From Clostridia bacterium (GTDB lineage: Bacteria > Bacillota > Clostridia > Christensenellales > CAG-138), in NCBI GenBank assembly GCA_017525875.1, contig JAFXSG010000006.1, positions 1 through 45,025 on the forward strand: a stretch of 45,025 bases of DNA, given 5' to 3'. The notes beneath the pieces are model-generated. The model saw nothing but the letters and a program-made list of their open reading frames with translations, had not been told where the DNA came from and did no database searches. The translations under genes and the position numbers were made by a program. Positions 19,920 through 22,557 of this stretch are shown here, piece after piece; the stretch's first letter is position 1; each line of letters begins with the position of its first letter.

Positions 19920-20957
19920 ATGCCATATACTGTTAGCTCAAGTGAACGAACAAGGAGTTCCGGTGCGGAATATGAGACAAAGGCACTTTTATACCTGATG
20001 AATTTTAGGGATGATAGTGATGAGATACATTACTTTGTCGTCGATTTCTTTAATGACCTAACAGGAATGGATAGGTTTGCCGACAACCTATGGGATGTTC
20101 AGTCAAAAGGCGCAAAGAATAACTCTCCCGCTGCAATTGGAAAGGAGCTTGTAACGTTATTTAAGAATTTCCTAAGCGATCTGGATTTTAAATACCTGAT
20201 TCTGTTCCTCGGCGGCGTCTCATCTACAGTCCGTATAGATGATAAAATGGATGTTTTTAGTATTTCAAACATAACATCCCCTGCGTTGATAAAGCTCAAA
20301 GAAGGACTCAAAAGTGAGGCTGAAAAAAAGACATATATCGAAAACTCGAAAATCACCGATAATAATATAGATAGTTTTTTAGAGAAGGTTTTATTTGTTA
20401 TTGATAATAAAGCGCCCGAGGAATACGTAAGGGCTATCATCAAGGACCACCCTGCTATTATTCCAGAAGGACAGATACTGCGTGCTATATTTAACGAAAT
20501 CAGAAATGCCCAATCAGAGCTGAAAAACACATCGGTTGAAGGCGTTGTAATACAGACATCAGATGAAGTATTAAGCTTTTGTAGGCACCTCACAAATAAT
20601 GAGATTCGACTGATGACCTTGAATCGGATTATTAACCGAAATCCGGTAGAAAAAAACAGTGTGCCGCCGTCTTTTATTCCCATTTACAATTCCTGGGTTC
20701 CAGAAAAACGGCGAGACATGCTTGACCAATGTGTTCAAACGTTATGCAAAGCACTCTTCAATAAAAACGCAGCGTCGGAATTTTGGGGGCTTTTCGAGAA
20801 CATCTATTCGGTCATAGTTGAAAAACCCGCATATGATGTTCAGTCAATATATCAGGCAATAGATGTTGACAAGCGTAACGCTTCCCCTGATTTTGATGCT
20901 GTTTCTTTAAAGTACTTTATCTCCGTAGTGAAGGATGGTATTCAAAATGAAAATTAA
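19920..20957 (+). CDS. Putative dsDNA nuclease (Cap4/DUF4297-like) of a two-gene defence pair
   Basis: A 345-residue protein. The N-terminal part, SGAEYETKALLYLM ... DNLWDVQSKGAKNNSP ... LTLFKNFL, resembles the Cap4-type dsDNA nuclease domain (DUF4297) seen in CBASS and Lamassu effectors, with the D-x-Q-x-K core. The remaining ~220 residues are helical and not recognised. It is coupled to the ATPase gene by an 11-bp overlap (ATGAAAATTAA), which implies a protein complex. The inferred job is DNA degradation once the partner detects an invader. The nuclease call rests on motif shape only. Confidence 0.6.
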   Translation: MPYTVSSSERTRSSGAEYETKALLYLMNFRDDSDEIHYFVVDFFNDLTGMDRFADNLWDVQSKGAKNNSPAAIGKELVTLFKNFLSDLDFKYLILFLGGVSSTVRIDDKMDVFSISNITSPALIKLKEGLKSEAEKKTYIENSKITDNNIDSFLEKVLFVIDNKAPEEYVRAIIKDHPAIIPEGQILRAIFNEIRNAQSELKNTSVEGVVIQTSDEVLSFCRHLTNNEIRLMTLNRIINRNPVEKNSVPPSFIPIYNSWVPEKRRDMLDQCVQTLCKALFNKNAASEFWGLFENIYSVIVEKPAYDVQSIYQAIDVDKRNASPDFDAVSLKYFISVVKDGIQNEN

Positions 20958-22557
20958 GAGAACTGCAGTAGGCAATAAACAAGAGGCGTTTATTGAAAAT
21001 GGCTTTGCCGATGGTCTAAATATTATTTCTAGTGACGATAACAATAAGGGCAAAACGATTGCAATTCAGTCAATGATGTATGCCTTAGGGAATGAACCTG
21101 CATTTCCTACTTCATTTGATTATCAACAGTATTATCACTACATTGAATTTGAAGTGAAGGATAATACATACCATTTGTGCAGGTTCAATAACGGGTTCGT
21201 TCTAAAAAGCGGCTCGGTTTTGATGCTCTTTGATAATGTATCAGAATTAAAACGCTATTGGACCAAACACATTTTTTCTCTTCCTCAAATTGTGAAAAAC
21301 CAAGTTTTAAAGATTGTTGATCCTGTCCTATTCTTGCAGCTTTTCTTTATAGGGCAAGACAAAAAAGACTCATCAAATATTGCCCATCCCGGTTACTACA
21401 ATAAAACTGATTTTTATAATATGCTCTATGACATGTGCGATTTGAGCGGAATAGAACTTGATGAGGAAGAAATCAGAAAGATGAAAGAAAGAATAGCTCA
21501 GTTAAAAAACGATCGTAGTGTTTTAATTAAGCAGCATAAAATCCTCAAGTCTCAGGATACACCGGTTAGTTATTTAAGCTCAGTAAGTGACAGGTCGACA
21601 TTTGCAAAGAAGCTATCAGATATGGAAAAGCTTAATGACAAGATTGCTGAGCTTAGAAAAGCTCGAAATACTGCTGCCACGAGAAGGGCGAGTTGGGAAA
21701 CCACTCTAAAAGAGTTACGATCATTAAATCGTTCTATGGAATGTGGTGAGTTAAGATGTATGGATTGTAATTCGACCAATATTTCTTTTAGTGCATCAAA
21801 GAAAAATGCATATGCGTTTGATGTATCTACCGTAGAAATGCGGAATGAAATAATTGCTTCTATCAATGAAAAAATAGATTCATACAATGAAGAGATCAGT
21901 AAGCTTTCAGCACAAATTAGTTTAGCTCAAAGCGATTTACAAGACGTTATGGAAGACGAATCGATTTCGCTTGAGGCAATAGTTGCCTACAAACAAGACG
22001 TTTTCAGTGCGGCGGATGCAGAAACGAAGATTAGAGAAATTGATTTAGAGCTAGAAACCCTAAATGACAAACTTCGTATAAGTGCTGGAACAACTCAATC
22101 CAAGAAAGAGCAGCAGCTCTCATTGTTAATCTCACTATTGAACGAGATGAATACCGTGCATGAGACCATCGATCCGAATGGTAATCTAGAATTCGATGAC
22201 ATATTTACTAAGCGAGATGAAGTTTATTCTGGGAGCGAAGCTACTATTTTTCATTTGTCACGGCTATATGCGTTTGCAAAGGTATTGCAGCATGATTTCC
22301 CAATTGTTGTAGATTCTTTCAGAGCGGAAGATTTGTCCACCGCAAAGGAAAACATCGTTCTCGACATCTACAAGGAATTACCCAATCAGGTTATCTTTAC
22401 TACAACTTTAAAAGTAGAAGAATTTGGCAAGTATGATGATCGTGCAGGTATCAATCATATTGATTATAAAAGCCACATGCCAAGCAAAATGCTTTCTGAT
22501 GAGTATTTGGATGAATTCATGAATATAATGACTAGTATGTCTATCAATCTAAGATAA
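20947..22557 (+). CDS. SMC/Rad50-like ATPase with a central CxxC hook
   Basis: A 536-residue protein with the ATPase halves at the two ends: a Walker A-like GKT at 35-37 (DDNNKGKT) and a Walker B-like FPIVVDS with D456. Two charged helical stretches (~170-255 and ~300-400), likely coiled coils, flank CMDC at 271-274 in the exact middle, as in the Rad50 zinc hook. Ser follows D456 where Glu is usual, so ATP turnover may be slow or depend on a partner. It is AT-rich. The pair with a nuclease resembles Lamassu LmuA-LmuB, but no LmuC is present. The ATG at 20947 lies in the overlap with the nuclease gene. Confidence 0.7.
   Translation: MKIKRTAVGNKQEAFIENGFADGLNIISSDDNNKGKTIAIQSMMYALGNEPAFPTSFDYQQYYHYIEFEVKDNTYHLCRFNNGFVLKSGSVLMLFDNVSELKRYWTKHIFSLPQIVKNQVLKIVDPVLFLQLFFIGQDKKDSSNIAHPGYYNKTDFYNMLYDMCDLSGIELDEEEIRKMKERIAQLKNDRSVLIKQHKILKSQDTPVSYLSSVSDRSTFAKKLSDMEKLNDKIAELRKARNTAATRRASWETTLKELRSLNRSMECGELRCMDCNSTNISFSASKKNAYAFDVSTVEMRNEIIASINEKIDSYNEEISKLSAQISLAQSDLQDVMEDESISLEAIVAYKQDVFSAADAETKIREIDLELETLNDKLRISAGTTQSKKEQQLSLLISLLNEMNTVHETIDPNGNLEFDDIFTKRDEVYSGSEATIFHLSRLYAFAKVLQHDFPIVVDSFRAEDLSTAKENIVLDIYKELPNQVIFTTTLKVEEFGKYDDRAGINHIDYKSHMPSKMLSDEYLDEFMNIMTSMSINLR

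Follow-up and report, generated by a model that had tools for sequence, protein, structure and literature searches.

Lamassu defence systems combine an LmuA effector with the SMC/Rad50-like ATPase LmuB and, usually but not obligatorily, with LmuC, which the review PMC10586767 describes as 'lacking in some systems'. That review gives a Glu-to-Gln replacement after the Walker B Asp as general for LmuB, from which low or no ATP hydrolysis was inferred. Structures in the PDB cover the three-gene arrangement LmuA-LmuC-LmuB (9hqx, 9uxh, 9nyg; titles include 'nuclease sequestration state' and 'LmuA nuclease tetramer bound to DNA duplex') and a two-gene arrangement (9ux7, titled as an LmuAB-DNA complex), and our literature searches found no paper describing them. 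Here we analysed contig JAFXSG010000006.1 of a Clostridia bacterium (the window, 45,025 nucleotides (nt)), in which gene A (19920..20957, + strand, 345 amino acids (aa)) encodes a candidate nuclease of predicted Cap4/DUF4297 fold, and gene B (20947..22557, + strand, 536 aa) an LmuB-like SMC/Rad50-type ATPase with a zinc hook. An earlier note, made from the sequence alone, had read them as a Lamassu-like pair of a Cap4-like nuclease candidate and a short zinc-hook ATPase, and as perhaps a separate minimal system. The first part of that reading was borne out, and we consider it likely that the two genes are a divergent Lamassu-like defence module of the LmuC-less (LmuAB) type, in which B would sense foreign DNA structures and unleash the nuclease A. 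The analysis itself shows that the genes are co-conserved, that B is homologous to LmuB, that motifs are kept and selection is purifying, and that the pair occurs in defence-island, plasmid and prophage contexts.

The PDC-M22A and PDC-M22B models of PADLOC-DB (2023) matched A (2.1e-152) and B (4.7e-213) over nearly their full length, and LmuB models also matched B (best 2.8e-26). The pair is thus a member of the PADLOC candidate system PDC-M22 (models PDLC04520-04526), from which no difference was found, with membership judged by the presence and adjacency of both genes, independently of PADLOC's own rule file. PADLOC's PDC genes are termed 'phage defence candidate' genes in PMC11514479. The name PDC-M22 was not found in a full-text search of an open-access library without bioRxiv preprints, and literature searches on Lamassu, ABC-3C, PDC and LmuAB returned no paper naming a link between PDC-M22 and two-gene Lamassu. 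As far as these searches show, the link to two-gene Lamassu is therefore new, both for PDC-M22 and for a second candidate, PDC-M46. The A/B pair is a little-studied cousin of two-gene Lamassu, and the result is mostly a family placement rather than a new kind of system; an uncharacterised candidate family thereby gains a probable place and a mechanism that can be tested.

Genes A and B are a real, intact and conserved two-gene module. Both open reading frames (ORFs) were present as an overlapping pair, and with B starting at ATG 20947 the overlap is 11 nt. This ATG is the likelier start, because the three nearest homologues have the same 11-nt overlap at its position and a Shine-Dalgarno-like ggatgg precedes it; an upstream alternative ATG at 20935 would give an ORF of 540 aa (20935-22557, + strand). 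The overlap was 11 nt in four of 15 pairs (window, L002, L003 and L009) and 4 nt in the remaining 11. The earlier note had made its reading depend on co-occurrence of the two genes in other genomes, and A was found directly upstream of B in all 15 loci with a full-length B, the window and two plasmids and one prophage included. Relatives of B came from nine genome-contig loci (L002-L010), genomes G255 and G435, a Paenibacillus larvae plasmid, a Cytobacillus firmus plasmid and one IMG/VR contig (L071), with A of 315–363 aa (the shortest in L038) and B of 534–549 aa; a fragment (L011; B residues 211-533, 45%), with no A within its 13-kb locus, was excluded from this count. Two taxon labels, Paludibacteraceae (L006) and gamma proteobacterium (L008), belong to short metagenome-bin contigs and were not relied on. 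Differences from the closest homologue were mostly synonymous in both genes (A, pN 0.134 and pS 0.856; B, pN 0.142 and pS 0.838; synonymous sites saturated), so that both look to be under purifying selection, and together with the homologous pairs in 14 further loci this makes the pair more than a chance arrangement.

The pair is rare in the genomes sampled, since only 2 of 299 genomes of the phylum held a strong match to B, the same two holding a strong match to A (a third A match was weak, 5.4e-4), and only 2 of 391 genomes of the class, the window's own included, gave a strong match to B. A search of 149 genomes with another M22A model returned the window alone. Phage records held no match to A, to B or to the B of the prophage; a first scan of viral contigs likewise found none, and it was an alignment-based scan that found the prophage L071.

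The motifs quoted in the earlier note (DVQSKG in A; DDNNKGKT, CMDC and a Ser after the Walker B Asp in B) were all present. In B, the Walker A motif SDDNNKGKT (residues 29-37, with DDNNKGKT at 30-37; 21031..21057, + strand) is identical in all 15 homologues, and the zinc-hook motif CMDC (residues 271-274; 21757..21768, + strand) lies next to residue 268, the midpoint of the protein, as had been noticed, with a CxxC at residue 270-271 in 15/15 homologues. The ABC signature SGSE (residues 428-431; 22228..22239, + strand) is invariant in the 14 aligned homologues, as are D456 and S457 of the Walker B motif IVVDS (residues 453-457; 22303..22317, + strand), in which Ser replaces the catalytic Glu. 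The plasmid and prophage carriers and the overlapping genes would also suit a toxin-antitoxin-like module, kept for plasmid or prophage maintenance, with A as a toxic nuclease and B as a mere neutraliser. We regard this as very unlikely, as the Walker A motif, signature and hook are kept in 14/14 aligned B proteins and would be needless for a passive neutraliser, and B is a close homologue of LmuB.

Family databases added little for B, with no convincing Pfam, NCBIfam or PHROGs family. The best Pfam match, Reprolysin_4 (0.0088), was below the family cut-off, and the best NCBIfam match, TrlF_fam_ATP (5.5e-9), was set aside because its score of 35 bits fell far below the cut-off of 350 and the match spanned only residues 172-406, mostly coiled coil. 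Single-sequence phmmer of B against PDB sequences returned no more than four matches, all to coiled coils and none better than E 0.24.

For comparison with Lamassu we took, from the phylum and class genome searches, the nine relatives of B that scored highest outside M22 (L041-L049), with their surroundings. In all nine a gene of 342–379 aa lies directly upstream of the ATPase with no gene between. These upstream genes matched LmuA (DUF4297) in 7/7 scanned, the remaining two having been aligned with them only; the Pfam Cap4 nuclease family matched in 2/2 scanned, and the ATPases matched LmuB in 3/3 scanned. Two-gene Cap4-type Lamassu is therefore the rule among the best-scoring LmuB kin of B. 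Not every relative follows it, however, since a weaker one (L031:1-3099, reverse strand) has an LmuA (8.3e-35), a 165-aa ORF that may be LmuC, and an LmuB-like ATPase in a row. PDC-M22 resembles two-gene Lamassu (9ux7) in gene order, overlap, similar protein sizes and the lack of an intervening gene, and both combine a Cap4-like nuclease (predicted for A) carrying a D..Q-x-K motif with a hooked SMC ATPase having a D-S Walker B.

Most features that had suggested novelty turned out to be common to two-gene Lamassu. LmuC models matched none of ten small neighbours of M22 pairs at nine loci (E 0.1), whereas as a control an LmuC model matched the gene before the longer LmuB of L081 (1e-66). The absence of LmuC from the neighbours scanned separates PDC-M22 from three-gene Lamassu, but not from Lamassu as such, given the 9/9 related loci without a gene between (the LmuC scan covered neighbours at M22 loci). 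The ATPase is indeed short, about 100 aa shorter than the three-gene LmuB chains of 9hqx, 9uxh and 9nyg, yet the two-gene LmuBs compared (eight of the nine, that of L047 being split by a stop and left out of alignments and trees) have 560–583 aa. Similarly, the Ser after the Walker B Asp, which takes the place of the Gln given for LmuB, is genuine but also occurs in 7/8 two-gene LmuBs (the eighth has D-T) and in the LmuB of 9ux7, and the Walker A does not distinguish the pair from Lamassu either. The 'separate minimal system' of the earlier note consequently comes down, for the most part, to a divergent neighbouring branch of two-gene Lamassu that PADLOC already lists as candidate PDC-M22. What does differ is the hook, CMDC, CLDC or CLSC in M22B as against CPxC in two-gene Lamassu, the intact SGSE signature of M22B, and a nuclease without detectable sequence similarity to LmuA.

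A tree of 15 M22B, eight two-gene LmuB, one longer LmuB, four PDC-M46B and five SbcC proteins placed M22B in a clade of its own (100/99) beside two-gene LmuB (84/74), with all of these apart from SbcC (100/99), although long branches were flagged. A smaller tree without PDC-M46B agreed (M22B with two-gene LmuB, 81/73). Topology tests rejected neither trees that set M22B apart from the LmuB and M46B rows (p-AU 0.21) nor trees that unite the LmuB rows in one clade (p-AU 0.19).

For A, the earlier note had placed a nuclease motif D-x-Q-x-K in DVQSKG (residues 59-64). Q61 and K63 held up, being invariant with D46, W58 and S62 in 14/14 aligned homologues, but D59 is Asn in one of the 14 (L038), and the metal-binding acid is more likely D46 (in FFNDLTGM). 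The predicted PD-(D/E)xK-type active site is therefore better written D46-x14-Q61-x-K63 (20055..20108, + strand). Comparable spacings were found in nine LmuAs (D-x(12-16)-Q-x-K) and in four PDC-M46A proteins (D-x13-Q-x-K). As a background count, among 237 ORFs with 250 aa or more, 29 had such a spacing pattern within residues 20-90, 23 being M22A, LmuA or M46A and six others; the count missed some M22A copies through start choice and duplicate removal.

A structural model of moderate confidence suggests a Cap4/LmuA-like fold for A with a helical C-terminal half, and in a fold search this model matched Cap4-type nucleases, with no Mre11 row among the matches listed. No Pfam match to SAVED, the C-terminal ligand-binding domain of CBASS Cap4, was found in A, and the partner of A is an SMC-like ATPase and not HerA as for DUF4297-HerA nucleases. 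By sequence, no Pfam, NCBIfam or PHROGs family was convincing for A, single-sequence phmmer against PDB sequences gave no match, and the best profile match there (0.026) was taken as chance. A viral-protein fold search with A gave no matches at E 0.001 or better.

These findings also bear on whether the genes could serve DNA repair in the manner of SbcCD/Mre11-Rad50, as a housekeeping pair or one carried by an element, trimming DNA ends without an immune role. Walker B has D-S in 15/15 M22B proteins (in L002 read from the alignment, the motif pattern search having missed it) against the catalytic D-E in 5/5 SbcC controls, the model of A matches Cap4-type nucleases with no Mre11 row among the matches listed, and the rarity of the pair, its neighbours and its mobile carriers point to defence; we hold the repair reading to be highly improbable.

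A sequence bridge between A and LmuA failed, both directly and through PDC-M46A, in profile comparisons; no LmuA model of PADLOC-DB matched A up to E 1, and hhalign gave 1.8% for A against LmuA. By contrast, LmuA and PDC-M46A are weakly linked (20.5%, E 0.0011; one M46A matched an LmuA model at 1e-7). Together with the canonical SGSE signature, the different hook and a tree test that does not reject M22B outside LmuB, this would suit a separate two-gene defence system sharing only its ATPase ancestry with Lamassu, in which A is an independently recruited, differently regulated Cap4-fold nuclease. We think this possible but unlikely, since gene order, overlap and motif spacing are alike, A (315–363 aa) and B (534–549 aa) are close in size to LmuA (342–379 aa) and LmuB (560–583 aa), and A and B share a single LmuAB complex as their best VIA match. 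Moreover, LmuAs diverge fast, and a profile of nine two-gene LmuAs found no solved LmuA even up to E 10. An equally tentative, broader idea is that LmuB-like switches were paired more than once with unrelated Cap4-fold nucleases (LmuA, PDC-M22A and perhaps PDC-M46A), with PDC-M22 an independently assembled two-gene SMC-nuclease immune system having its own interface and, as the intact SGSE signature may suggest, its own ATP gating; if so, the SMC switch would be the conserved core and the executor exchangeable.

PDC-M46 (L017, L029, L030 and L034, the last assigned by alignment and the others covered by the PADLOC scan) is likewise a two-gene system, with a Cap4-like nuclease candidate of 331–343 aa, unrelated to A by profile, and a short LmuB-like ATPase of 482–487 aa. 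Its ATPase lacks any CxxC hook (4/4), unlike M22B, and the system appears to be related to two-gene Lamassu, minus the hook. A search of 199 genomes with PDC-M46B at E 1e-10 returned none, though M46 genes are present at the four loci. PDC-M22 and PDC-M46 illustrate the small size that SMC-type two-gene modules can reach (about 345 aa plus 485–536 aa, with or without a zinc hook), and comparing a hooked with a hookless family could show directly if Lamassu-like DNA sensing requires the hook and ATP hydrolysis.

Under the Lamassu-like reading of A and B, and by analogy with Lamassu, B would be an ABC-type SMC/Rad50-like protein dimerising through its CxxC hook and its ATP-bound heads. As proposed for the LmuB Glu-to-Gln replacement, the Ser that replaces the Walker B Glu may leave ATP bound and only slowly hydrolysed, which would allow B to act as a switch. 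At rest A would be held inactive by B, and once B encounters an end, a hairpin or another structure formed by replicating phage or plasmid DNA, A could be freed or rearranged into an active oligomer. The Cap4-type PD-(D/E)xK site of active A would then cut double-stranded DNA and stop the invader, probably at the cost of a killed or stalled cell.

The setting of the pair is consistent with defence. At least one defence-family neighbour, among the neighbours chosen for scanning, was found at 8/9 genome-contig loci: PDC-S53 (L002), PDC-S49/KAP (L003), C3a139 (L004), PDC-S58 (L006; weak, 2.6e-7), type III restriction (L007), a GmrSD_N fragment (L008), FRG/PDC-S15 (L009) and Cas9 (L010). The scanned neighbours at L005 had no defence match, nor did L008:3-2592, L009:3482-4465, others of L009 and L040, and the window's TnpV. 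On the two plasmids the pair has no adjoining co-directional annotated gene (the PLSDB gene table is incomplete). In the prophage (L071:3913-6608) it has a DUF927 replication-type gene and two small ORFs on one side and the gene for the terminase large subunit (GpA) on the other, a case of defence cargo carried by a prophage.

In the window, the restriction island described in the earlier note was confirmed by a methyltransferase and a specificity subunit beside the pair. The co-directional island is headed by an HTH_26 regulator (15145..15450, + strand; Pfam PF13443, E 1e-18), followed by a type IIG-like N6 DNA methyltransferase (15556..17598, + strand; PF02384, E 5.8e-21; PADLOC PDLC03616, E 1.5e-246), a restriction specificity subunit (17595..18764, + strand; PF01420, E 3.5e-29) and a 368-aa ORF with FEVQSKG, a candidate nuclease without a Pfam match (18770..19876, + strand); the last three lie upstream of A and B in the same orientation, and downstream comes a TnpV gene on the opposite strand. 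A Monoglobus pectinilyticus plasmid carries a homologue 77% identical to the 368-aa ORF, next to which no restriction genes are annotated, and distant homologues occur on archaeal plasmids; the ORF may encode a stand-alone nuclease and not a restriction subunit. The island flanks (13945-14331 and 22606-24872) hold a serine-recombinase-like fragment, recognised by eye, the TnpV gene and tRNA-Leu and tRNA-Gly genes, suggesting a mobile origin. Rfam gave no match in 14000-24500 at gathering scores.

At L010 (4720-13597) the pair shares its locus with a Cas9 PAM-interacting domain, and short-repeat ORFs there resemble a CRISPR array by eye; a small helix-turn-helix-like protein directly upstream looks, also by eye, like the one at 15145-15450 of the window. 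Finally, near the middle of the specificity subunit gene a tandem repeat (18067-18126; ELEAERVAELEAERV) contains two copies of a 24-nt unit, each made of two similar 12-nt halves, and such repeats in a specificity subunit could determine how far apart the recognised half-sites lie.
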